From positions 1 to 49,268 of the forward strand of contig NZ_RQVT01000063.1 of the NCBI RefSeq assembly GCF_004010055.1: a stretch of 49,268 bases of DNA. The letters are read 5' to 3'. Made by a program: the position numbers and the translations under genes. Position 1 is the stretch's first letter. Every line of letters begins with the position of its first letter. This document shows, piece by piece, positions 918-32,329 of the stretch. The notes beneath the pieces were generated by a model. The model had not been told where the DNA came from. It saw nothing but the letters and a program-made list of their open reading frames with translations, and did not search any database. The DNA comes from Psychroflexus aestuariivivens (GTDB taxonomy: Bacteria > Bacteroidota > Bacteroidia > Flavobacteriales > Flavobacteriaceae).

Positions 918-1418
918 CTAAATCAAACATTTAAAATAATCAAAGGTTTCTTCGCAGTCTTCACACTTGAACATGGCTTTGCAAGCTGTAGACCCAAATT
1001 GACTTACCAATTGCGTGTTTTTGGAACCACATTGTGGACACTCTATGATTTTTTTGTTTCCCAAAAGCGCATCTTTGTCAGATGTAGGATCAACGGGAGG
1101 CGCAATGCCGTAATCTTTCAATGCTTTTTTGCCTTCCTCAGTCATCCAATCCGTTGTCCAGGCTTCAGATAAAATTAGCTTAACTTCTGGTTCGTAGCCA
1201 TGTTCTTTAAGCGCAGTTTTAATATCATCGCCAATGACATCCATAGCCGGGCACCCGCTGTATGTCGGCGTAATTTCTACTTTAACTTTATTGTTTTCTA
1301 GCAAATAGGCAGAGCGAACCACGCCTAAATCTACAATACTCAATACTGGTATTTCTGGGTCAGAGACTGATTTTAAAATGGGTAGTAATTCTGTTGCTAT
1401 GTCTGCTTCTTGTGTCAT
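918..1418 (-). CDS. paaD: Phenylacetyl-CoA epoxidase accessory subunit PaaD
   Basis: 166 residues. The N-terminal half is a MIP18/DUF59 domain (DPEIPVLSIVDLGVVR near residues 20-35, then TPTYSGCPAMDVI with the conserved Cys). The C-terminal part is a zinc-ribbon-like segment with two CxxC pairs (CPQCGSKNT and FKCEDC), as in PaaD and unlike plain DUF59 proteins. PaaD is thought to help assemble the iron centre of the PaaABCE epoxidase rather than to act in catalysis. It is the last gene of the minus-strand operon paaE-A-B-C-D, 75 bases after paaC. Neighbours and length both support the name. Confidence 0.93.
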   Translation of the reverse strand: MTQEADIATELLPILKSVSDPEIPVLSIVDLGVVRSAYLLENNKVKVEITPTYSGCPAMDVIGDDIKTALKEHGYEPEVKLILSEAWTTDWMTEEGKKALKDYGIAPPVDPTSDKDALLGNKKIIECPQCGSKNTQLVSQFGSTACKAMFKCEDCEETFDYFKCLI

Positions 1419-1493
1419 TTACTAAAAGAGTTATGAATTTTAAATAAAAAAATTATCAGTCTAAATTCTAACGTCTAACATCTATAATCTGTT

Positions 1494-2249
1494 CTACCAC
1501 TTCATATTTGGGTAAGCCAATTGCATGTACTGCATTTCGGATAAAATATAACCCATATGTTCAGTATGAATGCCTTTTTTACCACCTTTTTGAAAATATT
1601 GAATCTCTGGCACCTCAAGCGTAGCTTGTTTGATTAAGTCCGAAATAATTTGATAATATTCATCTTTCAAGCTTGAATTATCTACACCAAAACCTGCATT
1701 AGCAACAATCTTGTCGTCTTCATTCATGTGGAATAATTCATCGGTGTAAACCCACAAATCATTTATCGCTTTCTGCACACGTTCATGACTTTCTTCGGTA
1801 CCATCGCCAAGACGTTTCAACCAATCTCCAGAAAATCGTCTATGATAAGCAACTTCCTTTAAACTCTTTTTAGCAATATTTTGAAGATTAACATTCTTAG
1901 AATTTTCCAACTGCTTCAAAAGTAAATAATGGTAAACATCAAAGAAATATTGCCTCACTATGATATATGCAAAATCAGTATTAGGCTGTTCTACAAGCAA
2001 TACATTTTTATAATCGCGCTCTTTTCTTAAAAAAGCAATGTCATCTTCGGTTAAATCTTCATTAGACAATTCAGCGGCATACTGAAAATAACTCCTAGTT
2101 TGTCCAAACAAATCTAAAGCGATATTGGTCATAGCAATATCGGTTTCTAAAGTTGGACCATGACCGCAAAGTTCAGATAAGCGTTGACCCAAAATCAAAG
2201 AATTATCTGCAATGCTATGTATGTAATGAATTAAATTTTCGTTTGTCAT
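1494..2249 (-). CDS. paaC: Phenylacetyl-CoA epoxidase structural subunit PaaC
   Basis: 251 residues, the usual length for PaaC. It is a ferritin-like all-helical protein of the bacterial multicomponent monooxygenase fold. PaaC pairs with catalytic PaaA to form the core of the enzyme that makes ring-1,2-epoxyphenylacetyl-CoA. The segment EVAYHRRFSGDWLKRLGDGTEE near residues 130-155 is characteristic. PaaC is known to lack a full set of diiron ligands, so it is scaffolding. It lies 37 bases after paaB in the paaEABCD operon. No signal peptide or membrane segment is seen; a cytoplasmic protein is expected. Confidence 0.95.
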   Translation of the reverse strand: MTNENLIHYIHSIADNSLILGQRLSELCGHGPTLETDIAMTNIALDLFGQTRSYFQYAAELSNEDLTEDDIAFLRKERDYKNVLLVEQPNTDFAYIIVRQYFFDVYHYLLLKQLENSKNVNLQNIAKKSLKEVAYHRRFSGDWLKRLGDGTEESHERVQKAINDLWVYTDELFHMNEDDKIVANAGFGVDNSSLKDEYYQIISDLIKQATLEVPEIQYFQKGGKKGIHTEHMGYILSEMQYMQLAYPNMKW

Positions 2250-2286
2250 TATTATAAATAATTAAAATTTATCAACCGATTAGATT

Positions 2287-2571
2287 TTACATGTGTTCTA
2301 CATCATCCGGCAATTCGTAAAATGTTGGATGTCTATAAGCTTTGTCAGCCGCTGGTTCAAACATTTCGCCATTGTGCTCTGGATTGGAAGCTTTGATGTT
2401 TTTGGATTCAACTACCCAAATACTGACACCTTCATTTCTTCTAGTGTACACATCTCTAGCATTGTTGATAGCCATTTCTGCGTCTGGAGCGTGCAAGCTT
2501 CCAAAATGACGATGTTCCAAACCGTTTTTACTTCTAACAAATACTTCCCAAAGGGGCCAATTTTTTTTCAT
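2287..2571 (-). CDS. paaB: Phenylacetyl-CoA epoxidase subunit PaaB
   Basis: 94 residues, the normal length for this small subunit. It begins near WPLWEVFVRSKNGLEHRHFGSLHA and contains AINNARDVYTRRNEG and IWVVESKNI, all standard PaaB segments. PaaB bridges PaaAC heterodimers in the epoxidase complex. It lies between paaA (71 bases upstream) and paaC (37 bases downstream) on the minus strand. An open frame on the opposite strand over the same bases is a shadow with no recognisable content. Confidence 0.95.
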   Translation of the reverse strand: MKKNWPLWEVFVRSKNGLEHRHFGSLHAPDAEMAINNARDVYTRRNEGVSIWVVESKNIKASNPEHNGEMFEPAADKAYRHPTFYELPDDVEHM

Positions 2572-2613
2572 TCCATTTTATTTTAAATAAGTTTCATAGA
2601 CATTATAGATGAA

Positions 2614-2632
2614 TTCAATATTTAGTATTGAA
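2614..2632 (-). other. Small hairpin between paaA and paaB
   Basis: TTCAATA and TATTGAA form a 7-bp A+T-rich stem with a 5-base loop in the 71-base gap between paaA and paaB. It has no U-run, so it is unlikely to terminate fully. It could tune message stability or partial readthrough, or be chance in A+T-rich DNA. Confidence 0.3.
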
Positions 2633-2642
2633 CATTTTGAAA

Positions 2643-3626
2643 CTATATTGCTTTTCTTATCGATTCGTCATCTGTATGTTTTTCAGCATAAGCTACGGCT
2701 GCATCTCGAACCCAAGCGCCATTATCCCAAGCTTCATTTCTAGCTTTTAGTCGCTCTTTGTTACAAGGGCCGTGACCTTTGACAACTTGCCAAAACTCAT
2801 CCCAATCTATTTTTCCAAAATCATAATGTCCTGTATCGTTATTATATTTTAAATCTTCATCAGGAATTTTCAAACCTAAAATATCGGCTTGCGGTACAGT
2901 TTGATCAATAAATTGCTGACGTAACTCATCGTTGGTTTTACGTTTCAATTTCCATTTCATCGATTGTTCTGTGTGGATGGATTCATCGTCCGTTGGACCA
3001 AGCATCATTAATGAAGGCCACCACCAACGGTTCAAGGCATCCTGAGCCATATCTTTTTGCTCTTGCGTACCATTGCAAAGTGTCATCATGATTTCGTAGC
3101 CTTGTCTTTGGTGAAAACTTTCTTCCTTACAAACGCGAACCATTGCTCTGGCGTAAGGTCCAAAAGAAGTACTACATAAAGGAACTTGATTGATAATGGC
3201 TGCACCGTCTACCAACCAACCTATAGCGCCCATATCTGCCCAAGTTAGCGTTGGATAATTGAAAATACTAGAATATTTTGCTTTTCCAGAATGCAACTGT
3301 TCATACATTTCTTCACGAGAAATACCTAAAGTTTCACAAGCTGAATAAAGATATAATCCATGACCAGCTTCATCTTGAACTTTTGCTAATAAAGCTACTT
3401 TTCTTCGTAGTGATGGCGCTCTAGAAATCCAGTTTCCTTCTGGCAACATACCAACAATTTCTGAGTGTGCATGTTGAGAAATCTGACGAATGTGTGTTTT
3501 TCTATATTTCTCAGGCATCCAATCTTTCGGCTCTATTTTTTCATCGCGAGCAATTTTTGCTTCAAAAATATCTTCTAAACTTTTACTTTTTTCGTTTTGA
3601 CTTGTATTCTTTTCTACATTACTCAT
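2643..3626 (-). CDS. paaA: Phenylacetyl-CoA epoxidase catalytic subunit PaaA
   Basis: 327 residues. This is the diiron oxygenase subunit that epoxidises the ring of phenylacetyl-CoA using O2 and electrons from PaaE. Ligand motifs are visible: Glu56 in HAHSEIVG, the DEAGH motif with Glu86 and His89, and a second ExxH with Glu169 and His172 in [11 protein letters not shown]. The segment [11 protein letters not shown] is also typical. The N-terminus is slightly extended and hydrophilic (about 20 residues rich in Ser, Lys and Glu). It is second in the operon, 45 bases after paaE. All features fit an active PaaA. Confidence 0.97.
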
Positions 3627-3671
3627 AGCATTCTAATTTTTATTATTTTAAAATCTTTGAAGTCGATACAG

Positions 3672-4745
3672 CTAAACATCAAAATCGACAATAACTTGAT
3701 CTGAAGTCGGGATAGCTTGACAACTCAAAATAAAATTTTGTTTCAATTCTTCCTCTTCCAAAGCATAATTGACTTTCATTTCAACAGTTCCTTCTTTTAC
3801 TTGACATTTGCAAGTGCTACAGACGCCACCTTTGCATGCAAATGGCAGGTCAGCGCCAGCGGCAAGCGCAGCATCCAAAATGTTGTCATCTGTCTTAGTC
3901 ATTTCAAAGTGGAATTCTTTCCCACCATCTAAAACAGTAATTTTTGTACCGTCTTTTCGCTTAGCCATAGCGGCTTCAGCACGTTTTTTATCTTCTTCTG
4001 AAAGACCTGTGACAAACAATTCGTAGTGAATTTGTGATTTGCTTAAACCAAGTTTAACCATTTCGTCACGAATCATGAATATCATGTTTTCGGGTCCACA
4101 TATAAAAACTTCGTCCACATGATCAATATCGAAAATTCCACTAGATAACTGTTGTATTTTTTCAGGTGTGAATCTTCCGTTTAACAATTCGATATCACGC
4201 TTTTCTCTTGTCAAGAAATAAAATATTTCAAACCTTCCAAAATGAAGATTGCGTAATTGTTCTATTTCTTCCTTAAATATAATAGATTTAGCATTTTTAT
4301 TCAAGTAAAATAACTTACAATTAGCATTTGGTTCTTTAGCCAGATGGGTTTTAATCATCGAAAGAACTGGTGTTATTCCACTTCCTGCAGCAAAAAATAA
4401 ATACTCTTTTTCTTCAGTTTCACTAATATTAATGCCAAATTCTCCACTTGGTGGCATAACTTCTAAAATATCGCCGCTTTTTAATTCTGAATTGGCAAAA
4501 CTAGAAAATTTACCTTCAAAAATTTGCTTTATAGCAACGCGCCATTCATCGTCAACAGGGCTGGAACACAAAGAGTAAGATCGGCGGACATCTTCTCCGT
4601 TGATGTCTTTTTTCAATGTAAGATGCTGTCCTTGATGATATTTGAATTCTGATTTCAGATGCTCAGGAACATTGAAAGAAACAACTGTACAATCATCTGT
4701 CTCTTTATGTACTGACTTGACTTCTAATGGGTAAAATGTAGCCAT
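3672..4745 (-). CDS. paaE: Phenylacetyl-CoA epoxidase reductase subunit PaaE
   Basis: 357 residues. The N-terminal 240 or so form a ferredoxin-NADP reductase module (RRSYSLCSSP flavin-binding segment; FAAGSGITPVLSMI nucleotide-binding segment; VFICGPENMI). The C-terminal part is a plant-type [2Fe-2S] ferredoxin with Cys304, Cys309, Cys312 and Cys342 (CxxxxCxxC...C). PaaE passes electrons from NADPH to the PaaA diiron centre. Here it is the first gene of the operon; in Escherichia coli the order is paaABCDE. The ATG at 4745 lies about 30 bases after a -7 box overlapped by a palindromic operator. Confidence 0.95.
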   Translation of the reverse strand: MATFYPLEVKSVHKETDDCTVVSFNVPEHLKSEFKYHQGQHLTLKKDINGEDVRRSYSLCSSPVDDEWRVAIKQIFEGKFSSFANSELKSGDILEVMPPSGEFGINISETEEKEYLFFAAGSGITPVLSMIKTHLAKEPNANCKLFYLNKNAKSIIFKEEIEQLRNLHFGRFEIFYFLTREKRDIELLNGRFTPEKIQQLSSGIFDIDHVDEVFICGPENMIFMIRDEMVKLGLSKSQIHYELFVTGLSEEDKKRAEAAMAKRKDGTKITVLDGGKEFHFEMTKTDDNILDAALAAGADLPFACKGGVCSTCKCQVKEGTVEMKVNYALEEEELKQNFILSCQAIPTSDQVIVDFDV

Positions 4746-4772
4746 CGATGTGTTTTGATATTATTTTCAAAC

Positions 4773-4801
4773 AAAACTAACGATTGTTAGTCTGTTTTGA
4801 A
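4773..4801 (-). promoter_or_regulatory. paaE promoter with overlapping palindromic operator
   Basis: Read on the minus strand, ACTAACAATCGTTAGT (4792-4777) is a near-perfect 16-base palindrome. Its right half runs into TAGTTTTG (4780-4773), a match to the Bacteroidota -7 consensus TAnnTTTG. The palindrome extends with looser symmetry to about 4768-4801. No clear -33 TTTG is seen 19-21 bases upstream. The site resembles the PaaR (TetR-family) operators known from phenylacetate clusters, and the same module precedes the crotonase gene at 24128. A repressor binding here would block RNA polymerase; the regulator itself is not in the window. Confidence 0.75.
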
Positions 4802-4953
4802 AATTATTCATGTTAAAATAAGATTTGTTCAACCTTGAATTTGAAATTTTTCGCGTCACCAACAAAACTTCAAGGGATTTTATTGCTCATTCCGATTCAA
4901 AATTTTGGCTTTCATTCTTCAAGTGAAATATTTGTAAAGTTTAATTTAACACC

Positions 4954-7900
4954 TTATTTTTCAACTAAAATTCTGCCGCCTTTAGTTCTTGCACTAAATT
5001 CTGGAGCGTACATACTTTGTAAATTTGAATGTCCACCTGTAAAATCTCCATTTTGATTCGCTCGCAAATCGTATTCTAGAATATAAGTACCGCGTGGCAA
5101 ATCATCAATAAAAAAGTTGGTCGACGCATCTTTGGTCACTTGATAAAATCGTAAACCATCTTTGTATTTGTATTCTGAAATTACATCGGTTGGTTCAAAA
5201 GTAGAAGCTCGCAAATCTTTCAAGTGAATGAAATTGAAATCGTCTTTAGCTTTTATTGTCAACTGGATTCTTACCAAATCACCAATTTTCAAACTTTCAT
5301 TTTGAAGCCGAATCATATTTTCTCCATCTGAAGTCTGTTTCACCACAAACCATTCTTTTTCAACTTGAAGATATTCACTTGAAGAAGATTTTACATTGTC
5401 CAGATTTTCTAAATATTGCCAAAAAATACCACCAAATTGTGGAGAATCGCTTTTGTTTTTTATTTCGATATTTGCCATTTCAGGCTGAATATTTTCTGCA
5501 GAAAATACTTTTTTGATGCGTTTACTTTGTCGTTCTTCTTCCGATATTTCAATTGAAATATCGCCAAGTTTTATACTCGGTATTTTTTCTGAAGTTGTCC
5601 AAGATTTGCCAGACAACATAAGTGCGTAAATGGCTTCTGTAGTGGCTTTTGTTGTTGGCCAAGCTGCCTTTCTTTTGGAATGAATCAGCCATTGTTTCAA
5701 AAGATTTGTTTTTTGTTGGTCTTCTAAAATCTCACGAAAAGCTTCCACCGCCAATGCTTGGTTTTCTATAGCCGAATTTTGCCAGTTGTAATTGGTGAAA
5801 TTTTCTTTCCAATACATGCCTTTGTCCGTTTCTATCACAGCATTTTGCTCCAAAGCTTCCAGCACCGTTTTAGCTAAATTGTCATATCCAAATCTATTTG
5901 AAATTAAGGCGAAGAGCAGTTTTTGACTAAAACTAAAAGAGATCCAATCGTCTTGATGAGCATCTAGAAACTCTGCTGCAAGTTTTGTAATTGTTGGCTT
6001 GTTGTAGGTTTTGAAAAAACTTCGGCTGTATAGATAATGCAGTGTTTGATACTCTGTCTTTTTATTTTCATCATCTTGGTAAGCTTTGTCTAAAAACATG
6101 ACTAGTTTTTTAACCATATTTTCTGCCTCTGAATTTTCGATGTCGAAGGCTTCCAATTGTTCTAAATGTCCAAAACCAGCTAAGATATGTTGAGAAATCA
6201 AGAAGTTTTTGTGACCACCAGAAAACCATGGAAATGCGCCGTTTGGCAATTGCATGGCGTTCAATTTTGATATTAACTCCTGGATATTCTGTTCGTTTTT
6301 GTCTTTGTCCAGAAGTTTGCTCAATTGTTTTCTTTGGGCATCGTCATCCAATGCTTCTTGTAACCACGGTGTTTCTTCGATTAGAATTTGTTTCAACTCT
6401 TCGTTTTCGAACATTGCGCCGGTTTCATTTTCAGAATCACGCCATTGTTTCAAAATATTTTGAACATCGGGATGCGTGTTTAGAATTTTCACTGAAAGCA
6501 AATTCGAATATAATTTGGCGAAAGTTTGCTCGCTACATTCGTGGGGAAAATCCATGGTGTAGGGCAGCGCTTCCAATGCCGTCCAAATTGGATTCATATT
6601 ATAATTGAAGGTCAAACTTTTGTGAACTAAAGTTTCTGAATCATTGTTTTTCATTGCTGAAAATGTAAAGTCAGTTTTACTGTTAGGTTCAACCCAAATC
6701 GGTAAGGTTTCTGTGATCAAAACTTTGTTGCTCAAGACTGGAATTACATCTTCTTGCCCGTCTGTGAATTGTCCAGCTTTGGCTATAATTTTGTAGCGAA
6801 CAGCTTCAATATTTTCAGGAATTTTGAGTTCAAAACTTACATTTTTACTGCCTTTTGCAGGAATATTTACTCGTTGGGAATCTTCTGAATTGATAATGTT
6901 TATACTTTCTTGAGTAATTTCATTTTTGAATGAAAGTTGTGCCATACCATTTAATGCTTCATCGGTCAAATTTGTGATTTTTGCCGAAATGAAAATTCGA
7001 TCTCCCGATCTGAAAAATCTTGGGAAATTGGGCGATATATTCAGTTTTTTCTGAGTTACGACATTCAATTCTGTACGATGACTTCTCATTTTTTTATCGT
7101 GAGCTAGGGCTTGAAATTTCCATTTGGTCAAAGCTTCAGGACTTTCAAAATTGAATATAACTTCGCCGTTTTTATCTGTGGATAATTGTGGCATAAAGAA
7201 AGCGGTTTCTTTCAAATCTTTTCTGGGTTTGATTTGTTTTAAAGCAGCTTCCAGTTCAGCATCACCAGATTTTGAACTGATAAGAATAACGCCATTGGCA
7301 CCACGACTGCCATACAAAGAGGTGGCTTCTTCGCCTTTCAAGATATTAACTTCAGCGATATTGTTTGGATTTAAATTTCTAAAGTTTTCCCCAGAAACAA
7401 TTTCACCATCGACAACGTATAATGGGGTTTTGCCACCACTTATACTTCCGTTGCCTCTTATAGTTACAGAAGAATTATGAGTTGGTGAAGCTTCTGCATC
7501 TTCAACTTGAATTCCTGACACAGCTCCTTTCATAGCAAATGAACTTTCATCATCATATCCTGTAACAATAACCTCATCGAGACTTTCGGAATTGACTTTT
7601 AGTGTAAAGTTTATCCCCGAGTTATAGATTGTAGTTGTTTGGGTTGCGTAGCCAATAGATTCAGCAATTAATTCGTCTCCTTTATTGGCTTTTATTACAT
7701 AAAAACCATCAAAATCGGTTTGAGTGCCGCGATTCGTGCCTTTAATTAAAATGTTGGCACCTGGAACTGGTAAACCGTCTTCATCATACACATAACCGCT
7801 CACAGTTCCATTTTTGAATTTTATTTTTGTTTTTAGCTTTGCGATTAGTTTTTTGACATATTCATTTTGTGCTTCAAATGGATTTGTAAAATCATAACCA

Positions 7901-10900
7901 AAATTCTCTAATTTTACTAAAGTTGGTGCTGCTAAGCTTCTTCTATAACTGAAGTAACTTCTGTTGAGTGTCGTAAAACTGGAAATACTGAAAACTCTGC
8001 TATAAATGTTAGAATTCCCAAAAGTTTTATAAAGGTTGTAATCTTCTTTTTCGAATTTTACTCGCCATTGGTGTGGTCTGAAATCATCTAGAGATGCGTC
8101 GTACATGCTGGCAACAACTTCTGCAGCTACTGGATTTTTAGTATCATCCGTAACTTTTAGCGACCAAGTTTCGTCACTACCAGGTTCAAGTTTGTTGCGG
8201 TGAGAAATTACTTCAACTTGTATTGAACTATTCTTCGTTTTGAAATCGATGTTTCTTGAATTGCTTTGCCATTGGTTTCCGTAAATATAACTCCACTGAA
8301 TTTGCGCTTTTTCTGTGTTATCTGGCAGTTTGATTTGTTTTGAAAGCTTGGTTTTTAAGGTGTAAAATCGACGCTCATAAAAGCCGTTTTGATTGGAAAT
8401 CTCTAAAAACACATAAAGCTCTTCTGCATCGCTTTGCATGTTGAGTTGAGCAAATTTTCCATTTGAATTTTCTAAACTTTCAGCTTCTAAAGTGAAAGTT
8501 TCTTGCGGAAGCTCTGCATCTGTTTTGGAAGTGTAATTGATGTTTTGTTTCGCTTCTATTTCGATACCGAATTCATCTTTGGTTTCGATTTTTAATTGGT
8601 ATTTTCCGCTTTCTAAATTTAATTTTTCATCATAATTAAAGATATTTTTTTTGTCAGTATCGACGATAATTTGTGAAACTAGAGTATCGATTTCATTCAG
8701 TTTTTCTAGTTCATTCTGATCGTAAGCTTCATGAGGGAAAAGTTCTGTAAATTGTTCGAATGGAATTTGCTGAATTTCTGGTGGCGACCACGGTCTGTAT
8801 TTAAGTTTTCGATCCAGACTTTTGAAACGGTAAATTTTTAAAGTGTCTTCAATGTTTTTTTTGTTTTTGTTCAAGTCGTTTGCAGTAATCTGAAACTCCT
8901 GATTTTGACCTTCAGTAATTTCGTTTTCCGTAAGAATATCTATGTTTAGACCGTGATAACCGATGTTTATATTTTTTTCAGCGGTTCTGGTTTCACCATT
9001 AATATCCGTAACCGAAGCTTTGATTTGATAAACGAAAATTGGTAAGAATTTTTTATCGACAGTCCTATCGGGTTCAGCTTTGAATATGATTTCAAAATTA
9101 CCGTCTTGGTCGGTTTCAACTTCACCAGCAGCAATTCTTTCTGGCTCTACTGATTCAAAATAACGTGTTTGGCGATACAACGGGTTGTAATTCATTCGTC
9201 TTTCAACAGTAAATTCTACTTTGGCATTAGAAACATTACCGCCAAAAAAGGCTTGCGCTTTGCCACTAATATTAATACTGTCGTTCAATTTATATGTGGT
9301 CTTCAGATCGTTTATGTCAACTTCAAATTTTGGACGTTTATATTCTTCAACATTGAAATTGGCAGTTTTAGCTTCAAAATCGAAATAATCATATTTGTCA
9401 TAAAACGAATCATTATTATCAAAATCTTCGTCAATTTCAATAGAATATTGACCTAAATTCCGACCACGCGGAATTTTGAATTTGCCATGAACGCTACCAA
9501 ATTCATTCGTTTTGAGTTGAAGCGAGTCTAGCACATCTTGATTTTGATCTAAAAGTAAAATTTGAACGGAAAAGTCTTCTACAGCAGATGTTTGGTTTTC
9601 TTCTATGGAATGGACAAAAGTTTTGAAAAACACTTCTTGTCCTGGTCTGTAAATACTTCTATCAGTAATACTTTGTGCGAATATCTGCAAACCCTCATCA
9701 GAATTTGAAGCTTGTCTTTCATAGGGTTTTGAGTAGGAATCTTTGGTGCTTAGCGTATCTTGGTTGTGGATAAATGTGATTTGGTAAGGCTGGTAAGGTT
9801 CTTCAAAATTAAATCTGGCAATTCCATTATTATTGGTAGGTTTTACAAAACTTTTATCGCTACGTTTTTTTTTGAATTCTAAATGAACTTGTGCATTTTC
9901 AATCGGTTTGCCATTCAGACGTTCGACCAGCTGAAAGTCTATGAAATTGTCTTTTATTAGAATTTGAAAAGCCAAATCAGACACTTTTACGATTTGATAC
10001 TTAAATTCATCGTAAATCACGTCCGAGTTCGATTTTTCTGAAAATTTTAATACGTATTGCCCTTTCTCAAGTTCTGGAATGAGCACTTCTGTGCTATAGT
10101 TGAAATAATCGTTTTGGTTTGGTAATTTGTAAGTTTTGCTTATTTCTGCTGTGTTCGATTCGAAAAAAGACTTAATGATCGATTCTCGTTGTTTGTAATC
10201 ATATTTTGAAATTTCGTCGAAAAACGAATTTTTTGCAGAGAGTTTGTATATTTCTAAATCTAAACTGTCTATATTTTTGAAATTCACCAAAACTTTTGAC
10301 ATTTGATTTGGAGAAATGATTTCTTGACTAGTGATTTCTAGGTCTGGGAATTTTATCTTTTTAATCAATTTTCGGGCTTGGCTAGATAACTGAGATTCTG
10401 GATATGTTTCGATACATTCTTCAGCTAATTTCACACTCTTTTTATTAAAATCGGGGTAATTTTCTTTGTTAGCAAATTGCTCGTGATATTCTGCTAACTT
10501 CAGAAGAATGCTTGCTTTAGAATAATCTTCGTCGAATTCATTTTTTAAACTTTGAAGACTTTTGATATATAATTCGACTGTTTTATCACCGAAATCACCA
10601 TTGTTTTTTAAAAACTCTAAACGTTCTAAAGCCAAAGAAAATACAGATAATTCGCTATTGTTTTGCCAATGGAAAGTTTCTAAATTCTGATATATTTTCA
10701 ATTGCTTGAAAATAGAAGCTGTCGATTGTTCTGTGTTTATATTTAATTTAATAAAGTTTTTTGTTGTCGCTAAAAAAATAGAATCTTCAGGTTTAAACGA
10801 TGATTTAAATTCAGAAGGTTGTCGGTATTGTTCTAGGAATTCAATATATCTGTTGGCTAGAATGTCGTAAATACTTGTTCTGAATTTTTGGTAATTATCG

Positions 10901-11424
10901 CCTATTTTTAAAAAGTCTTTGTAGTCCTTATCCTCAATTTTTTGCAATTTAGATGATGGATTCAGTGACTCTTGGTACAAACTGTCGATCTGATGGTAAA
11001 GCTTGTTTTCACTCCAAGTTGTAAAGTCTTCAGAAGATCTATTGGTTTCGCTTCGTCTTCTGATTTTGTAGTAATTGCTATTGTAATATTCATTCAGGCT
11101 TTCGGCTAAATGTGAAGTCAAGATTTGTTTGAAAGGGAATTTTTGAGATTTAATTTCTTTTAAAAATGCTTGATAGACATCGTTTTCACTATTTTCTTTC
11201 AGCATCAATTCAAATTTCGACTTGTAGATGAATGCTTTTGCAGCTTGCTTTTGATTGTTTTTTCGCTTGGCTTTGTCATAAATTTCTAAAACCAACTCAT
11301 AAGCATCTTTAGAATGATCTTTAGTTTCTAGAATTTCAATTTTATCCCATAATTTGTCATATTTCTTTTGGGCGAATAAGTTCAAACTTAAAAGGCAGAT
11401 AAGTAGAATCAAGAAATTTTTCAT
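4954..11424 (-). CDS. Giant alpha-2-macroglobulin-family protein with inserted SusC-type regulatory/TonB-plug module
   Basis: 2156 residues with a signal peptide (MKNFLILLICLLSLNLFAQ). The N-terminal 500 or so are helical and Lys/Glu-rich. MG-type domains follow, including the MG2 signature DRSIYRPGQ near residue 590, and a bait-region-type domain from about 975. A SusC-like module fills about 1206-1385: a carboxypeptidase-regulatory repeat (GYVYDEDGLPVPGANILIKG), a LDEVIVTGYDD box and a plug with LYVVDGEI and SLYGSRGANGVILI. The A2M domain starts near 1400 (FFMPQLSTDKNGE). A thioester-type CxEQ motif (CSEQ, Cys1630) is followed by a terpenoid-cyclase-like helical region and a C-terminal receptor-like domain. 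No TonB-receptor barrel is present. Bacterial members are thought to trap proteases in the envelope. The role of the plug is unknown. Confidence 0.88.
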   Translation of the reverse strand: MKNFLILLICLLSLNLFAQKKYDKLWDKIEILETKDHSKDAYELVLEIYDKAKRKNNQKQAAKAFIYKSKFELMLKENSENDVYQAFLKEIKSQKFPFKQILTSHLAESLNEYYNSNYYKIRRRSETNRSSEDFTTWSENKLYHQIDSLYQESLNPSSKLQKIEDKDYKDFLKIGDNYQKFRTSIYDILANRYIEFLEQYRQPSEFKSSFKPEDSIFLATTKNFIKLNINTEQSTASIFKQLKIYQNLETFHWQNNSELSVFSLALERLEFLKNNGDFGDKTVELYIKSLQSLKNEFDEDYSKASILLKLAEYHEQFANKENYPDFNKKSVKLAEECIETYPESQLSSQARKLIKKIKFPDLEITSQEIISPNQMSKVLVNFKNIDSLDLEIYKLSAKNSFFDEISKYDYKQRESIIKSFFESNTAEISKTYKLPNQNDYFNYSTEVLIPELEKGQYVLKFSEKSNSDVIYDEFKYQIVKVSDLAFQILIKDNFIDFQLVERLNGKPIENAQVHLEFKKKRSDKSFVKPTNNNGIARFNFEEPYQPYQITFIHNQDTLSTKDSYSKPYERQASNSDEGLQIFAQSITDRSIYRPGQEVFFKTFVHSIEENQTSAVEDFSVQILLLDQNQDVLDSLQLKTNEFGSVHGKFKIPRGRNLGQYSIEIDEDFDNNDSFYDKYDYFDFEAKTANFNVEEYKRPKFEVDINDLKTTYKLNDSINISGKAQAFFGGNVSNAKVEFTVERRMNYNPLYRQTRYFESVEPERIAAGEVETDQDGNFEIIFKAEPDRTVDKKFLPIFVYQIKASVTDINGETRTAEKNINIGYHGLNIDILTENEITEGQNQEFQITANDLNKNKKNIEDTLKIYRFKSLDRKLKYRPWSPPEIQQIPFEQFTELFPHEAYDQNELEKLNEIDTLVSQIIVDTDKKNIFNYDEKLNLESGKYQLKIETKDEFGIEIEAKQNINYTSKTDAELPQETFTLEAESLENSNGKFAQLNMQSDAEELYVFLEISNQNGFYERRFYTLKTKLSKQIKLPDNTEKAQIQWSYIYGNQWQSNSRNIDFKTKNSSIQVEVISHRNKLEPGSDETWSLKVTDDTKNPVAAEVVASMYDASLDDFRPHQWRVKFEKEDYNLYKTFGNSNIYSRVFSISSFTTLNRSYFSYRRSLAAPTLVKLENFGYDFTNPFEAQNEYVKKLIAKLKTKIKFKNGTVSGYVYDEDGLPVPGANILIKGTNRGTQTDFDGFYVIKANKGDELIAESIGYATQTTTIYNSGINFTLKVNSESLDEVIVTGYDDESSFAMKGAVSGIQVEDAEASPTHNSSVTIRGNGSISGGKTPLYVVDGEIVSGENFRNLNPNNIAEVNILKGEEATSLYGSRGANGVILISSKSGDAELEAALKQIKPRKDLKETAFFMPQLSTDKNGEVIFNFESPEALTKWKFQALAHDKKMRSHRTELNVVTQKKLNISPNFPRFFRSGDRIFISAKITNLTDEALNGMAQLSFKNEITQESINIINSEDSQRVNIPAKGSKNVSFELKIPENIEAVRYKIIAKAGQFTDGQEDVIPVLSNKVLITETLPIWVEPNSKTDFTFSAMKNNDSETLVHKSLTFNYNMNPIWTALEALPYTMDFPHECSEQTFAKLYSNLLSVKILNTHPDVQNILKQWRDSENETGAMFENEELKQILIEETPWLQEALDDDAQRKQLSKLLDKDKNEQNIQELISKLNAMQLPNGAFPWFSGGHKNFLISQHILAGFGHLEQLEAFDIENSEAENMVKKLVMFLDKAYQDDENKKTEYQTLHYLYSRSFFKTYNKPTITKLAAEFLDAHQDDWISFSFSQKLLFALISNRFGYDNLAKTVLEALEQNAVIETDKGMYWKENFTNYNWQNSAIENQALAVEAFREILEDQQKTNLLKQWLIHSKRKAAWPTTKATTEAIYALMLSGKSWTTSEKIPSIKLGDISIEISEEERQSKRIKKVFSAENIQPEMANIEIKNKSDSPQFGGIFWQYLENLDNVKSSSSEYLQVEKEWFVVKQTSDGENMIRLQNESLKIGDLVRIQLTIKAKDDFNFIHLKDLRASTFEPTDVISEYKYKDGLRFYQVTKDASTNFFIDDLPRGTYILEYDLRANQNGDFTGGHSNLQSMYAPEFSARTKGGRILVEK

Positions 11425-24059: not shown

Positions 24060-24090
24060 TTGTCTTTCAAGCTAACAATTGTTAGATTTG
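24060..24090 (+). promoter_or_regulatory. Crotonase/PaaY promoter with perfect palindromic operator
   Basis: TTG (24060-24062), a 20-base spacer and TAGATTTG (24083-24090) make a well-spaced Bacteroidota promoter. The perfect 14-base palindrome CTAACAATTGTTAG (24072-24085) overlaps the first three bases of the -7 box. The module CTAACAATTGTTAGATTTG matches the one before paaE at 17 of 19 positions, with the same phase relative to the -7 box. A shared repressor is the simplest reading. Confidence 0.78.
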
Positions 24091-24127
24091 GAGATTAAAT
24101 AATATGAACATTAAGAAATTAAATACG

Positions 24128-24880
24128 ATGACAGAAGCTTACGTAAAAAAAGACATACAAGACAAAATTGCAATAATTGAATTTTTTCATCCAGCACACA
24201 ATTCTTTACCGAGTGATATTTTGGCTCAACTAGCTGAAACTATTACAGAGGTTGGACAAAACGATGAGGTTTTAGTCATCATTTTGAAATCTGGCGGAAA
24301 CCGAACCTTTTGCGCAGGAGCTAGCTTCAAAGAATTAATCAATATTGATGACGAAAAAACAGGCGAAAAATTCTTTATGGGTTTTGCAAACGTGATCAAT
24401 GCCATGCGAAAGTGTCCCAAATTCATTATTGGGCGTGTGCAAGGCAAAACTGTTGGGGGAGGCGTAGGCTTAGCTTCAGCAATGGATTATTGTATGGCGA
24501 CAAAATTTGCAGCAATCAAATTGAGTGAGTTGAATATCGGCATTGGACCATTTGTTGTCGGACCAGCCGTAGAACGTAAATTGGGCGTAAGCGGAATGTC
24601 GCAAATCGCGATAGATGCTAATTCGTTTTATTCACCAGAATGGGCAATGCAAAAAGGCTTGTTTGCCAAAGTTTTTGAAAGTACAGAGGAAATGGATGAA
24701 GCCGTCGCAGAATTTGCTAAAAATTTATGCGAATACAACCCGGAAGCGGTAAAACATATGAAACAAATGTTTTGGCGAGGCACCGAAGATTGGGATGAAT
24801 TGTTAAATGAACGCGCTAAAATCAGTGGGAAATTAGTATTGAGTTCATTTACAAAAGAGAAATTGAAAAGGTTTAAGTAG
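24128..24880 (+). CDS. Enoyl-CoA hydratase/isomerase family protein, probable phenylacetate-pathway member
   Basis: 250 residues from MTEAYVKKD. An ATG eight codons earlier (24104) is possible but adds a segment (MNIKKLNT) unlike the family. The crotonase fold shows FCAGASFKEL and GKTVGGGVGLASAMDYC, the two oxyanion-hole loops. In classical hydratases two Glu residues act on water; here the position after GGG is Gly (GGGVG) and only the second Glu is kept (KLSELNIGIGP). That is more like an isomerase or a special hydratase. The operator shared with paaE and the PaaY gene downstream suggest a step of phenylacetate degradation. Its exact reaction is inferred, not shown. Confidence 0.85.
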   Translation: MTEAYVKKDIQDKIAIIEFFHPAHNSLPSDILAQLAETITEVGQNDEVLVIILKSGGNRTFCAGASFKELINIDDEKTGEKFFMGFANVINAMRKCPKFIIGRVQGKTVGGGVGLASAMDYCMATKFAAIKLSELNIGIGPFVVGPAVERKLGVSGMSQIAIDANSFYSPEWAMQKGLFAKVFESTEEMDEAVAEFAKNLCEYNPEAVKHMKQMFWRGTEDWDELLNERAKISGKLVLSSFTKEKLKRFK

Positions 24881-24930: not shown

Positions 24931-25302
24931 ATGAATGGTAAATATCATTTCAAGTTTGAAGATTTAAAAATCTACCAAAAAGCTATTTTACTTGGAGAGT
25001 TCGTTCATAAAATTATTCAAAAGTTTCCAAAGAGAGAGGACTTTAAGCTTTCTTCTCAATTTAGCAGAGCTTCTGATTCTATTGCTCTAAACATAGCGGA
25101 AGGTTATTCTGGATCTGATGCTAATTTTAATCGATATTTAATTGTTTCTCAAGGTAGCGTAAATGAATGTGTTGCATGTACAACAAAAGCTAAATTAAGA
25201 AAATACATAACAGAAAAAGAAAATGAAGAATTAAGAAAAGAACTATCAGAATTGTCAAAAATGAATTCATCTTTAAGAAAAAGATTAACAGCTAAAAGCT
25301 AA
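24931..25302 (+). CDS. Four-helix-bundle protein, 23S rRNA intervening-sequence (S23) type
   Basis: 123 residues. The segments YHFKFEDLKIYQKAILLGEFV, FPKREDFKLSSQFSRASDSI and NIAEGYSGSDANFNRYLIVSQGS are the signatures of the S23/IVP four-helix-bundle family. The family was first seen inside intervening sequences of 23S rRNA and is related in fold to Avd of diversity-generating retroelements. Here it stands alone between two phenylacetate-type genes. Its last residues (TAKS) are encoded by the flanking GCTAAAAGC tract. Its cellular function is not known. It may be a passenger in the operon. Confidence 0.88.
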   Translation: MNGKYHFKFEDLKIYQKAILLGEFVHKIIQKFPKREDFKLSSQFSRASDSIALNIAEGYSGSDANFNRYLIVSQGSVNECVACTTKAKLRKYITEKENEELRKELSELSKMNSSLRKRLTAKS

Positions 25303-25318
25303 AAGCTAATGCCTAATG
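25289..25318 (+). repeat. Right GCTAAAAGC flank of the four-helix-bundle cassette
   Basis: AGCTAAAAGCTAAAAGCTAA is a short direct repeat (two and a half units of AAAGCT). It is followed by TGCCTAATGGC, which overlaps the start codon of paaY at 25316. It mirrors the left flank at 24886-24922. Confidence 0.5.
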
Positions 25319-25915
25319 GCTATATACAAATTCAAAAATCACATACCAGTTGTTCACAAATCTAGTTTTGTCCATCCATTAGCGGCTGTTACTGGAAATG
25401 TTATTATCGGTAAAGATTGCTACATCGGACCAGGTGCAGCAATTAGAGGCGATTGGGGCGAAATTATTTTGGAAGATGGTGTAAATGTGCAAGAAAACTG
25501 CACTGTCCACATGTTTCCAGGTAAAAGTATTCGATTGAAAAAAGGAGCGCATGTTGGTCATGGCGCTATAATTCATGGTGCGAATTTAGGCGAAAACTGT
25601 CTGATAGGAATGAATACTGTAATTATGGACGATGCTGAAATTGGCGATGAATCGATTGTTGGCGCAATGGCGTTTGTAAAAGCAGAAACTGTGATACCAA
25701 AGCGAAGTTTAGTCGTAGGTAATCCTGCAAAAATCATCAAACAAGTTTCTGATGATATGATTGCCTGGAAAACCGCTGGAACAAAGCTTTACCAGCAATT
25801 ACCAGCCGATTGCCATGACAGTTTGGAAGTAGTCGAGCCATTGAGAGAAATACCGAAAAATCGTCCAAAACAGGAAGATTTTTATCAAACTTTACAAGAA
25901 ATGAAAAAACAGTAA
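25316..25915 (+). CDS. paaY: PaaY-like gamma-carbonic-anhydrase-fold thioesterase
   Basis: 199 residues. It is a left-handed beta-helix of hexapeptide repeats with metal-ligand His65 (NCTVH), His82 and His87 (HVGHGAIIHG). It matches Escherichia coli PaaY end to end: PVVHKSSFVHP, GPGAAIRGDWG, IGMNTVIMDDA, SIVGAMAFVKA, VVGNPAKII, and the C-terminal VEPLREIP that plain carbonic anhydrases lack. PaaY hydrolyses dead-end CoA esters formed during phenylacetate breakdown. The gene follows the crotonase and four-helix-bundle genes on one transcript from the operator-bearing promoter. A terminator follows. Confidence 0.92.
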   Translation: MAIYKFKNHIPVVHKSSFVHPLAAVTGNVIIGKDCYIGPGAAIRGDWGEIILEDGVNVQENCTVHMFPGKSIRLKKGAHVGHGAIIHGANLGENCLIGMNTVIMDDAEIGDESIVGAMAFVKAETVIPKRSLVVGNPAKIIKQVSDDMIAWKTAGTKLYQQLPADCHDSLEVVEPLREIPKNRPKQEDFYQTLQEMKKQ

Positions 25916-28309: not shown

Positions 28310-29650
28310 ATGTCAACAAAAGAATTTAAACTCCCAAAAATGGGAGAAAGTATTACCGAAGGCACAATTTTGAACTGGGTAGTCAATGAAGGCGAAAGTT
28401 TTCAGGAAGGCGATATTTTGGTTGAAGTTGGGACTGATAAAGTCGACAACGAAGTGCCAGCACCCTTTGCTGGAAAACTTGTGGAAACTAAATATCAAGC
28501 GAAAGACGTTGTTAAAATAGGATCAGTGATTGCGATTTTGGAAGTTTCTGAAAAAGGCGAAACTGCGTCTCAGGATCCATCTAAATCTGAGACTGAAGAA
28601 AATAAAAGCAAATCAAAAACTTCTATTAAAAAACCAACACCAAGCGCACCTGAAAAACGATCACAAGCACCTGAGTCTGTTTCACAAGAATGGAAATCAG
28701 TAAATCGAACTAATAATTTTTACTCCCCTTTGGTGGAAAAAATCGCACAGGATTATCACATTAGCTATGAAGAATTAGCGCGAATTCCAGCAAGTGGAGC
28801 AAATGATAGATTACAGAAATCAGATATTTTTAGATATATAGAAAACGGGCGTCCAGCACAATTTGCCCAACCTGTTGAGGTGCAACATCAACCTCAAAAC
28901 AAAAGTTCTTTTCAAGTTCCAGATTTAAAATTTGATAAAGGCAAAGGAAAACTTGTAGAAATGGACCGAATGCGTCAGATGATTGCCGATCATATGGTGT
29001 TTTCTAAGCATACTTCACCTCACGTTACAGCTTATGTTGAAGCCGATCTCACAGATTTGGTGAATTGGAGAAATGCAAATAAAAAGTCTTTTCAGGAAAA
29101 AACAAGTGAAAAATTGACCTTTACACCACTTTTTATTCAAGCTGTTACCAAAGCGATTCAAGATTTTCCAATGATTAATTCTTCGCTTGATGGAGACCAA
29201 ATCATCGTTAAAGACGAAATCAATATCGGAATGGCAACGGCACTTCCAAGCGGAAATTTGATTGTTCCGGTAGTGAGAAATTCCGATCAGAAAGACTTGG
29301 AAGAACTGGCAAAAGTAGTGAATGAATTGGCAGGAAAAGCAAGAGATAACAAATTATCAAACGATGATACCAAAGGCGGCACGTTTACCATTTCAAATGT
29401 AGGAACTTTTGGGAGTTTGATGGGGACACCGATTATCAATCAACCGGAAGCAGCGATTTTGGCGACAGGAATTATCAAAAAACGCGCTGAGGTTATGGAA
29501 TATGAAGACGGCGATAAAATTGAAATCCGACAGATGATGTATTTGTCGCTTTCATTTGATCACAGAATTGTAGACGGATTTTTAGCTGGTAGTTTTTTAA
29601 GGAGGATTGCGGATTATTTGGAGAACTCAAAAAATCTGAATAAAATTTGA
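28310..29650 (+). CDS. 2-oxoacid dehydrogenase E2 (dihydrolipoyl acyltransferase), branched-chain type
   Basis: 446 residues. An N-terminal lipoyl domain has lipoylated Lys44 in VGTDKVDNEVP. A Ser/Lys/Pro-rich linker is followed by an E3/E1-binding domain at about 136-178 (YSPLVEKIAQDY...PASGANDRL), a second linker, and the catalytic acyltransferase domain ending in FDHRIVDG with His418 and Asp422. It transfers the acyl group to CoA. With the fused E1 gene at 30290 it makes a 2-oxoacid dehydrogenase; the single lipoyl domain and the E1 type favour branched-chain 2-oxoacids over pyruvate. A GxxExxY cassette separates the two genes. Confidence 0.92.
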   Translation: MSTKEFKLPKMGESITEGTILNWVVNEGESFQEGDILVEVGTDKVDNEVPAPFAGKLVETKYQAKDVVKIGSVIAILEVSEKGETASQDPSKSETEENKSKSKTSIKKPTPSAPEKRSQAPESVSQEWKSVNRTNNFYSPLVEKIAQDYHISYEELARIPASGANDRLQKSDIFRYIENGRPAQFAQPVEVQHQPQNKSSFQVPDLKFDKGKGKLVEMDRMRQMIADHMVFSKHTSPHVTAYVEADLTDLVNWRNANKKSFQEKTSEKLTFTPLFIQAVTKAIQDFPMINSSLDGDQIIVKDEINIGMATALPSGNLIVPVVRNSDQKDLEELAKVVNELAGKARDNKLSNDDTKGGTFTISNVGTFGSLMGTPIINQPEAAILATGIIKKRAEVMEYEDGDKIEIRQMMYLSLSFDHRIVDGFLAGSFLRRIADYLENSKNLNKI

Positions 29651-29851: not shown

Positions 29852-30229
29852 ATGACGGAAAACGAACTATCCTACAAAGTAATTGGAAAGGCAATGGAGC
29901 TTCATAAATCTTTAGGACCTGGATTATTGGAGTCTTCATATGAGGCTGCGTTAAAATACGATTTGGAAAAAGCTGGACTACACGTACAACAACAAGTGGC
30001 AATGCCTTTCATATATAAAGAAATTAATATGGATGTTGGATATAGGCTGGATTTAATTGTTGAAAATAAACTGATTTTAGAAATAAAATCTTTAGAAAAT
30101 TTAGCTCCTGTACATTTTGCTCAATTGCTTACTTATCTTAAATTATCAGATAAAAAACTTGGTCTATTAATTAATTTCAATACTAAATTGCTAAAAGACG
30201 GTATTCATCGTATCGTTAATAATCTATAA
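29852..30229 (+). CDS. GxxExxY protein
   Basis: 125 residues. The family motif is present as GLLESSY (GxxExxY) in LHKSLGPGLLESSYEAAL. The centre YRLDLIVENKLILEIKSLENL has the Asp...Glu-x-Lys spacing of the PD-(D/E)xK nuclease fold, and LLTYLKLSDKKLGLLINFN is the usual C-terminal part. The family is common in Bacteroidota and cyanobacteria and has no settled function. The gene sits between E2 and E1 of a metabolic operon within CGCAAAG-type repeats, so it looks like a recent cassette rather than a partner of the enzyme. Confidence 0.9.
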   Translation: MTENELSYKVIGKAMELHKSLGPGLLESSYEAALKYDLEKAGLHVQQQVAMPFIYKEINMDVGYRLDLIVENKLILEIKSLENLAPVHFAQLLTYLKLSDKKLGLLINFNTKLLKDGIHRIVNNL

Positions 30230-30233
30230 AATA

Positions 30234-30275
30234 GCTTTGTGGGCTTTGCGAAAACCTTAGCGCACTTTGCGAGAA
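30234..30275 (+). repeat. Right CTTTGCG-type flank of the GxxExxY cassette
   Basis: CTTTGTGGGCTTTGCGAAAA and CCTTAGCGCACTTTGCGAG lie between the GxxExxY stop and the true E1 start. They mirror the CGCAAAG tract on the left. Because they are open in the E1 frame, they add a false N-terminus (MGFAKTLAHFARKK) to E1 if translated from 30239. Confidence 0.7.
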
Positions 30276-30289
30276 AAAAGACAGATGAA

Positions 30290-32329
30290 ATGAAAAAAGA
30301 AATATTCAAAAAAGCTTTCAAAAACTTGGTAACGGCGAAAGCCTTGACCGAGTTATATGAAGAAAACTTTAAGGTGGTTTCTAAATACGTTCATGCCACA
30401 TCACGTGGTCACGAAGTTATACAAACCGCTGTAGGAATGCAGTTAGAACCGCAAGATTATGTCTATCCATATTACCGAGACGATTCTATTTTACTTTCCA
30501 TAGGGATGACACCAAAAGACCTTATGTTGCAACTATTGGCAAAAAAGGACGATCCGTTTTCTGGAGGAAGAACTTACTATTCACACCCGAGTTTGAAGGA
30601 TGAAGACAAACCGAAAATTCCACATCAAAGTTCAGCAACAGGAATGCAAGCCATTCCCGCAACTGGTGCTGCAATGGGATTTTGGTACAAAGAACAACTC
30701 AAGCAAGACACCAAACAAGCTGTTGTAGTTTGTTCTCTTGGCGATGCTTCCGTTACCGAAGGTGAAATTGCTGAAGCGCTTCAAATGGCAGCTTTGAAGC
30801 AATTGCCAATTATTTATTTGGTTCAAGATAATGGTTGGGATATTTCAGCCAATGAAGCAGAAACTCGTGCTCAAAATGCGTTTGAATACGCCCGTGGATT
30901 TAACGGTTTGGAAGCAATTACAATAGATGGAACTGATTTTGAAGAGTCGTATTCAGAATTCAACAAAGTTTTAAAAACCGTTAGGGAAGAACGTCGGCCA
31001 TTTTTGGTACACGCCAAATGTCCATTGTTGAATCACCACACATCTGGTGTACGAATGGAGTTTTATCGAGATGATTTGGAAGAATCTAAATTACGTGATC
31101 CTTATCCAAAATTGAAACAACAATTATTGAAAAATGGGTTTACTGAAGATGAGTTAGAAGCTATTGAAAACGAAGCAAAAGCTATTGTTTCTAAAGAATA
31201 TCAAGAAGCTTTGTTGGCGGAAGATCCAAAACCTGAAGATTTGTTTACCCACGATTTTGCACCAACAAAAATTACTGAAGAAAAAGGAAATCGCTCTCCA
31301 GAAGGCGCCGAGAAAGTTGTTATGGTGGATTGTGCGTTGTTTGCCATTGAAGAATTGATGAAAGAATTTCCAGAATGTTTGTTGTACGGTCAAGATGTTG
31401 GAGGAAGATTGGGTGGTGTTTTTCGTGAAGCTGCTACGCTAGCTCAAAAATTTGGTGATCATCGTGTATTCAACACGCCAATTCAAGAAGCTTTTATCGT
31501 AGGTTCTACCGTTGGAATGTCAGCGGTTGGTTTGAAACCAATTGTTGAGGTTCAGTTTGCGGATTATATTTGGCCAGGACTCAATCAATTATTTACAGAA
31601 GTCAGTAGAAGTTCTTATTTATCGAACGGAAAATGGCCAGTTTCTATGATTTTGCGTGTGCCAATTGGTGCTTACGGAAGTGGTGGTCCCTACCATTCTT
31701 CTTCTGTTGAAAGCGTGGTGACCAACATTCGCGGTTTAAAAATTGCTTATCCTAGCAATGGCGCAGATTTAAAAGGTTTGATGAAAGCCGCTTATCACGA
31801 TCCAAATCCTGTGGTTATTTTTGAACACAAAGGTTTGTATTGGAGTAAAGTGCCTGGAACCAAAGGCGCAACTAGCGTTGAGCCAGATAAAGATTATGTT
31901 TTGCCTTTTGGGAAAGCTTGGGTTTTACAAGAAATTTGGCCACAAGACGATCAGGAAACTTTGAGTATTATTACTTATGGAATGGGCGTTCATTGGGCAA
32001 TGAATGCTTCTCAGGAATTAGGCATGCAAGATCAAATTGAAGTGGTTGATTTAAGGACTTTACACCCGTTGGACGAGAAGACAATTATGAAATCTGTCAA
32101 AAAATGTGGAAAATGTCTAGTCGTTACCGAAGAACCTTCCGATAACACTTTTGCAAGAGCTTTAAGTGGTAAAATTCAAGAAGAATGTTTTCAATATATT
32201 GATGCGCCAGTGATGACTATTGGTTCTGAAAATATGCCGGCAATTCCTCTGAATTCAACTTTGGAAGAAACGATGATTCCAAGTACTGAAAAGGTGAAAA
32301 CTAAAATTCAAGAACTTCTGAATTACTAA
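30290..32329 (+). CDS. 2-oxoacid dehydrogenase E1, fused alpha and beta subunits
   Basis: 679 residues from MKKEIFKKAF. The alpha part (about 1-330) holds SRGHEVIQTAVGM, GGRTYYSH, and the thiamine-diphosphate motif GDASVTEGE...NGW (about 152-183). The beta part (about 342-679) holds YGQDVGGRLGGVFREA, TPIQEAFIVGSTVG, VEVQFADYIWPGLNQL and EEPSDNTFARAL. It decarboxylates a 2-oxoacid and loads the acyl group on the E2 lipoyl arm. The SRGHE segment and fusion are typical of the branched-chain type in Bacteroidota. The start at 30239 is rejected because those codons are cassette repeat DNA. Confidence 0.93.
   Translation: MKKEIFKKAFKNLVTAKALTELYEENFKVVSKYVHATSRGHEVIQTAVGMQLEPQDYVYPYYRDDSILLSIGMTPKDLMLQLLAKKDDPFSGGRTYYSHPSLKDEDKPKIPHQSSATGMQAIPATGAAMGFWYKEQLKQDTKQAVVVCSLGDASVTEGEIAEALQMAALKQLPIIYLVQDNGWDISANEAETRAQNAFEYARGFNGLEAITIDGTDFEESYSEFNKVLKTVREERRPFLVHAKCPLLNHHTSGVRMEFYRDDLEESKLRDPYPKLKQQLLKNGFTEDELEAIENEAKAIVSKEYQEALLAEDPKPEDLFTHDFAPTKITEEKGNRSPEGAEKVVMVDCALFAIEELMKEFPECLLYGQDVGGRLGGVFREAATLAQKFGDHRVFNTPIQEAFIVGSTVGMSAVGLKPIVEVQFADYIWPGLNQLFTEVSRSSYLSNGKWPVSMILRVPIGAYGSGGPYHSSSVESVVTNIRGLKIAYPSNGADLKGLMKAAYHDPNPVVIFEHKGLYWSKVPGTKGATSVEPDKDYVLPFGKAWVLQEIWPQDDQETLSIITYGMGVHWAMNASQELGMQDQIEVVDLRTLHPLDEKTIMKSVKKCGKCLVVTEEPSDNTFARALSGKIQEECFQYIDAPVMTIGSENMPAIPLNSTLEETMIPSTEKVKTKIQELLNY

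Follow-up and report, generated by a model that had tools for sequence, protein, structure and literature searches.

PaaR (TTHA0973) of Thermus thermophilus HB8 is a TetR family protein that represses paa units from a palindromic operator, for which the consensus CNAACGNNCGTTNG was derived from two promoters and AACnAACGTTnGTT by selection (PMC6651687). PaaR of Burkholderia cenocepacia is likewise described as a TetR-type repressor of several separate paa units, released by "compound II," which is taken to be phenylacetyl-CoA, but its 15-bp operator, ACCGACCGGTCGGTT, is of another sequence than the one presented here (PMC9493321). In flavobacteria, PaaR was predicted from gene context in 2026, paa configurations being associated with PaaY and PaaR; the words "operator," "binding site," and "phenylpyruvate" never occur in the main text of that paper (PMC13186573). 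Among the literature listed in our searches (titles and abstract starts, with few subscription papers), there was neither a flavobacterial PaaR operator nor a phenylpyruvate dehydrogenase feeding the paa pathway. Regulator and pathway are of known kinds; the operator, its geometry, and the dehydrogenase link described below appear to be new within the literature searched.

We analyzed a stretch of 49,268 nucleotides from Psychroflexus aestuariivivens (here called the window), which contains two predicted operators. Operator 1, CTAACAATCGTTAG (positions 4777 to 4790, minus strand), is located 31 bp 5' of the start of paaE and would serve paaEABCD, and operator 2, CTAACAATTGTTAG (24072 to 24085, plus strand), is located 18 bp 5' of the start of a crotonase gene and would serve crotonase-paaY. 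They are approximately 19 kb apart on the same contig (C2) and are the sole exact sites of the general operator pattern CTAACNNNNGTTAG in the genome (3.1 Mb, 64 contigs). The operator has CNAAC and GTTNG in common with the Thermus consensus described as CNAACGNNCGTTNG, the inner CG of which is not required at the sites in the window (PMC6651687): CNAAC-N4-GTTNG is present before paa genes here, with the inner G and C of CNAACGNNCGTTNG matched only in part. Since the half-sites fit the Thermus PaaR consensus, we read the two sites as part of a Bacteroidota PaaR-type regulon. The likeness of our TetR candidate to TTHA0973 is drawn from the operator consensus and the description of that protein.

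Unlike the Thermus operator, the operator in the window lies inside a Bacteroidota -33/-7 promoter. Bacteroidota sigma-A promoters combine a TAnnTTTG -7 element with a TTG spaced about 20 bp 5' of it. This arrangement is complete at site 2, where TTG (24060 to 24062), N20, and TAGATTTG (24083 to 24090) make up a plus-strand promoter (24060 to 24090) that holds operator 2 within its spacer and -7 element. At site 1, the minus-strand -7 element TAGTTTTG (4772 to 4779) overlaps the right arm of operator 1, and the -33 position is degenerate, with TTT (4800 to 4802) instead of TTG at N20 spacing. The initial annotation of this DNA had stated that the 19-mers at the two sites are identical at 17 of 19 positions and that each palindrome overlaps TAnnTTTG in the same phase, and we confirm both. 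The site that it noted before paaE is real; the interval assigned to it (4773 to 4801) is shifted, the 19-mer occupying 4772 to 4790 and the palindrome 4777 to 4790. Operator 1 is also the center of a longer imperfect inverted repeat (4760 to 4807) with 22-nt arms that are 82% complementary.

The genes behind operator 1 encode the phenylacetyl-CoA epoxidase and form the unit paaE-paaA-paaB-paaC-paaD (918 to 4745, minus strand), recognized by Pfam and tblastn. paaE (3672 to 4745) scores 408 bits with TIGR02160, under its cut-off of 420.8, and paaA (2643 to 3626), paaB (2287 to 2571), paaC (1494 to 2249), and paaD (918 to 1418) were assigned by Pfam. A 2,156-aa open reading frame (4954 to 11424) lies 5' of paaE on the same strand. 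Operator 2 precedes the crotonase gene (croX; 24104 to 24880, plus strand; Pfam ECH_1), for which no NCBIfam family scored above its own cut-off among the best 25 matches listed, and paaY (25316 to 25915, plus strand), encoding a hexapeptide-repeat protein (TIGR02287, 230 bits, under its cut-off of 319.6). Crotonase orthologs are located between paaZ and paaY in the paa clusters of relatives, and croX, judged by position only, probably represents the pathway's second hydratase, a PaaF-like one. In Psychroflexus salarius (L025), all genes form a single cluster in the order GSCFA-tetR-operator-paaE-A-B-C-D-G-H-I-J-Z-crotonase-paaY; its crotonase is 83% identical to that of the window and has no operator directly before it. 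In the genome studied here the cluster is dispersed, with paaEABCD and crotonase-paaY on C2, paaZ/J/I on C39, paaG/H on C21, and tetR on C11, the latter behind a GSCFA gene as in the P. salarius order. A gene of the 23S rRNA-intervening-sequence type separates crotonase and paaY in the window (24931 to 25302), and genes of this type (51 to 76% identity) recur in or beside the paa clusters of relatives, where their position varies; in L333, L334, and L338, for instance, they lie between paaH and paaI, and L034 and L052 have them as well.

We consider the palindromes to be predicted operators of a PaaR-type TetR repressor, encoded at G000:C11:20554-21114, which would control the two units through steric block and release by an acyl-CoA, and assign this reading a probability of roughly 0.85. 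A TetR homodimer would sit on CTAACNNNNGTTAG, filling the -33/-7 spacer and overlapping the -7 box, and the bound protein would block RNA polymerase until a pathway acyl-CoA, with phenylacetyl-CoA as the likeliest candidate, releases it. It would control paaEABCD and, 19 kb away, crotonase-paaY, which we regard as fragments of a paa cluster, undivided in relatives and broken up here. A PaaR-type regulon with the operator inside the promoter had been proposed in the initial annotation; conserved sites, TetR co-occurrence, and Thermus-like half-sites support it as a prediction from sequence. The expectation of extra operators before other paa genes mostly failed, as there is no good operator before paaG/H (C21), paaI/J/Z (C39), or tetR and no PaaK-type ligase, which leaves the operator at two of the four paa units. 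The best matches around the other units are two sites within reading frames, each with 11 of the 14 fixed bases of AACTAACNNNNGTTAGTT, and a 10/14 match is found approximately 60 bp before paaG. The missing sites at paaG/H, paaI/J/Z, and tetR argue against the PaaR reading. The sharing of one operator by several paa units, expected of a PaaR-type regulon, is seen here for two units. If correct, the PaaR reading provides a TetR regulon of Bacteroidota for which an operator, a regulator gene, and a promoter arrangement can each be named and put to the test.

As anticipated in the initial annotation, the probable regulator gene lies outside the window, on another contig. It encodes a protein of 187 aa that matches TetR_N with 41.2 bits, above the cut-off, and, of the three TetR_N genes in the genome, is the ortholog of the TetR gene beside paaE in relatives. 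The TetR genes L021 and L023 were rejected as regulators, L021 for its weak, mostly N-terminal similarity in paa loci and L023 for showing no similarity among the paa-locus matches listed. In a set of 149 family genomes, including the one studied here, the ortholog is present in 57 of the 60 genomes with PaaE (a match of at least 55% identity) and in 0 of the 89 without, in agreement with the predicted linkage of a TetR gene to paa; the Fisher values for this co-occurrence ignore the kinship of the genomes, and four TetR matches of 24 to 31% identity in PaaE-negative genomes were not counted as orthologs. The gene is at most 400 bp away from paaE in 53 of the 57 and, in the remaining four (G000, studied here, and G054, G074, and G010), is more than 10 kb distant or lies on a different contig. 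In these four genomes and in seven congeners the paaE operator is kept despite the distant tetR, which implies that the factor would act in trans. Of 22 congeners in which both genes were mapped, 11 have 1.3 to 5.7 kb between tetR and paaE (e.g., loci L333 to L338). The Saprospira grandis TetR is 33% identical; a TetR match on a Deinococcus plasmid was dismissed as a paa regulator, with no paa genes within 12 kb.

Conceivably, the palindrome serves another factor, and the TetR gene has simply long been a neighbor of paa. Such a scenario, which we consider improbable, would accommodate two genomes that also count against the PaaR reading, G168 (99% complete, approximately 250 contigs) and G171 (80% complete), both of which carry paaE and the exact operator without a TetR match in the genome, and our screen for regulators covered the TetR family only. 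Six loci with an exact operator (L024, L026, L058, L068, L071, and L077) also weigh against the PaaR reading, as the stretch searched around each shows no TetR match. Also in favor of another factor, no operator precedes tetR in the genus, where the gene was found in 24 of 27 genomes and the best score is below 0 in 24 of 24 loci, our own included; autoregulation of tetR via an operator of its own was rejected for the genus on these grounds, whereas TTHA0973 is described as having its own operator. However, operators are found before tetR itself in G087, L069, L072, L081, and L085, the half-site fits published PaaR sites, and just three TetR_N genes were found in the genome, one of which is this ortholog. 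Besides the 57/60 versus 0/89 distribution, the erosion of the site in a genome that lacks TetR argues against a different factor: the PaaE-positive genomes without the ortholog are G089 (82% complete), G112 (64%), and G027 (99%), and in G027 (L115), the sole near-complete one, which has no TetR match genome-wide, the TTG...TAGTTTTG promoter is retained and the palindrome is lost. The same is seen in L032, where no TetR match is present at the locus.

The TetR ortholog is the probable repressor. Its residues S39, L40, Y41, N42, and H43 (SLYNH) are invariant in 34 orthologs from named loci, as is the half-site, and they lie in or adjoin the third predicted helix (37 to 43 in the structure predicted for the P. 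salarius ortholog); the third helix is the recognition helix of TetR proteins. The P. salarius model has a TetR fold (pLDDT, 95.4), and the nearest solved folds are Thermus PfmR and KstR2, followed by DarR, AibR (with isovaleryl-CoA), and FadR (with stearoyl-CoA), so that several of the closest structures are complexes with an acyl-CoA. PfmR, KstR2, AibR, and FadR are 19 to 25% identical, belong to other regulons, and respond to acyl-CoAs. These fold neighbors of a predicted structure favor an acyl-CoA inducer without proving one, and some near folds, such as DarR, bind cyclic nucleotides, which speaks against it. Phenylacetyl-CoA is reportedly the effector of Thermus PaaR, according to work by Sakamoto in 2011.

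The relation between operator and promoter differs across the family. Among 93 paaE loci, 27 (mostly outside Flavobacteriaceae) lacked an exact palindrome and 66 had one, which after removal of 2 duplicates left 64 contexts; these are selected for the exact palindrome and some may stem from the same species, and the upstream stretch of L042 was unreadable. Class A comprises 29 of the 64 (from Psychroflexus, Aequorivita, Aquimarina, Kordia, and other taxa), in which TAG.TTTG and the right arm overlap. Class B, likewise 29 contexts (from Flavobacterium, Winogradskyella, Bizionia, and other taxa), has the last base of its TAnnTTTG exactly 9 bp 5' of the palindrome; L116 shows both arrangements and 5 contexts show neither. 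Exactly 9 bp 5' of the palindrome is where a TTG ends in 27/29 class A and 29/29 class B contexts (56/58 in total), our own paaE site being among the exceptions in class A. At this fixed distance, the TTG fits a -33 element (N20 to TA) in class A; in class B, it fits as the last part of a -7 element. With the Bacteroidota -7 consensus, TAnnTTTG, at -12 to -5 (PMC9723704), the class A operator would extend from approximately -23 to -10 and that of class B from approximately +6 to +19, and in either position it could block transcription. The class B operator would cover the transcription start rather than the -7 element. The upstream TAnnTTTG is only the putative -7 element of class B: against this reading, none of the 29 contexts has a TTG at the usual distance (14 to 24 bp) 5' of it, and class B may keep a weak class A promoter. 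The outgroup loci of Spirosoma (L062) and HyVt-532 (L071) are class A, and L058 and L077 are neither, which hints that class A is older than class B. The proposal that the operator covers the -7 box holds for this genus and for roughly half of all surveyed promoters but not for the rest, where TAnnTTTG lies 9 bp upstream. The operator stays in place while the operon breaks up and the promoter register appears to change.

These data also bear on the possibility that the palindrome, instead of being an operator, is an element of the promoter or start site, constrained only by its overlap with -33 and -7. Although the right arm supplies the TA of TAnnTTTG and the register of the TTG is fixed, both halves are exact while the promoter needs the right arm only, and in 29 of the 64 contexts, selected as they are for an exact palindrome, TAnnTTTG lies outside it. 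In addition, the promoter persists without the palindrome in L032 and L115, and we judge this explanation very unlikely.

Site counts alone do not distinguish the operators from background. With up to 2 mismatches on both strands of the window there are 5 matches, a number also reached by 14 of 100 shuffles, where 2.46 would be expected; genome-wide, the 2 exact sites compare with 3.4 expected from the base composition of the window and with 10 for a reversed control pattern, and the 18-mer with 1 mismatch has 2 matches, as has its control. The genome-wide palindrome count, being above neither chance nor control, was therefore dropped as evidence. What sets the operators apart from chance is their placement before paa-pathway genes and their conservation. 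Both exact sites are at most 31 bp from the start of such a gene, and the chance of finding two in five 100-bp upstream stretches is about 1.5e-7, although these stretches were picked post hoc. Operator 1 is exact before paaE in all 25 genus genomes with paaE (of 27, our own included), always in the -7-overlapping phase, and an exact operator precedes paaE in 29 of 30 family loci examined, again including our own, so that the palindrome is kept in relatives as had been predicted. A chance resemblance of two 14-mers, though compatible with 2 exact sites where 3.4 are expected, is contradicted by this conservation and by the position of both sites just 5' of paa-pathway genes, and we regard it as negligible.

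Conservation on the crotonase side is looser. TTG-N20-TAG.TTTG precedes crotonase in 19 of 27 genus genomes, and within 250 bp 5' of the gene (our own genome included) operator 2 is exact in 5/27, which counts against the PaaR reading, and has at least 9 of 10 bases in 17/27. A crotonase-side operator is located between paaZ and crotonase in L334 and L338 and ahead of crotonase-paaY-E2-E1 in L339 and L340. In Saprospira grandis, tetR and the next gene of the pathway have CGAACATTTGTTCG between them, and CGAACAAGCGTTCG precedes paaA. In the Saprospiraceae loci L061 (8485 to 8523) and L064, tandem palindromes of the CTAAT/CTAAC type, rather than one, are found before paaE. Single-mismatch sites of CTAACNATYGTTAG at C11:134702 (L003) and C48:196964 (L004) fall within reading frames and were taken as chance. 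Another, at G000:C56:192890 (L005, 1501 to 1514), lies approximately 90 bp 5' of a 105-aa reading frame and also at the end of another one; it may represent a further target.

Downstream of paaY, the window carries genes for a 2-oxo-acid dehydrogenase, i.e., an E2 acyltransferase (28310 to 29650, plus strand; Pfam) and a fused E1 alpha-beta subunit (30239 to 32329, plus strand), whose best solved matches are 2-oxoisovalerate dehydrogenase subunits. An E2 ortholog (at least 57% identity) is present in 56 of the 60 PaaE-positive family genomes versus 1 of the 89 PaaE-negative ones (G048, 82% complete), and G087 has a further, partial E2 match of 73%. A separate E2 of approximately 43 to 49% occurs in both groups; in our genome and in G042 it is located away from paa, beside genes identified by eye as recR and a glycosyltransferase. 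No operator precedes E2 in the window. Elsewhere, one is present in 8 of the best 30 E2 loci, and also in G026 and G079, both of which were selected for showing a second site. E1 lies between the operator and paaE in Saprospira grandis, adjoins tetR in Spirosoma (L062), and follows paaY in Agaribacillus (L058).

The co-inheritance of this complex with PaaE may relate to the source of phenylacetyl-CoA. No PaaK-type ligase was detected in our genome at E <= 1e-40, whereas the described Thermus regulon includes a phenylacetyl-CoA ligase (PMC6651687). Of the 149 family genomes, 4 have a PaaK-type ligase of more than 500 bits, all of them PaaE positive (4/60) and none above the family cut-off; weaker PaaK-family matches in 29 further genomes (146 to 188 bits) were not counted. 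Most PaaE-positive genomes here thus differ from those described in the 2026 flavobacterial study, which carry a CoA ligase (PMC13186573). In Phaeobacter, phenylalanine is reported to be converted via phenylpyruvate without free phenylacetate (PMC7497051). The co-inheritance suggests that the E1/E2 complex makes phenylacetyl-CoA from phenylpyruvate; branched-chain substrates for E1/E2, or other CoA ligases supplying phenylacetyl-CoA, are possible as well. Taken one step further, the PaaR regulon of Flavobacteriaceae might serve phenylalanine rather than phenylacetate, with E1/E2, in part of the family under the same operator, replacing PaaK, and with a switch of promoter register in which one conserved TTG acts, depending on the genus, as the -33 element or as the last part of the -7 element. 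We offer this combined proposal tentatively, at somewhat less than even odds. It suggests a route from phenylalanine to phenylacetyl-CoA that would go unnoticed in surveys relying on PaaK.

Several other genes accompany the dehydrogenase. Between paaY and E2, the window has a Dpp7-like gene on the opposite strand, and between E2 and E1 a PDDEXK_3 gene (29852 to 30229); a relative of the latter (54%) is found at the same place in L339, and others occur in L024 and L034, both paa loci. A class I/II aminotransferase gene (34464 to 35648), approximately 2 kb past E1, is a possible source of phenylpyruvate, and in G026 and G024 the gene adjoining E2 is, by eye, a branched-chain aminotransferase.
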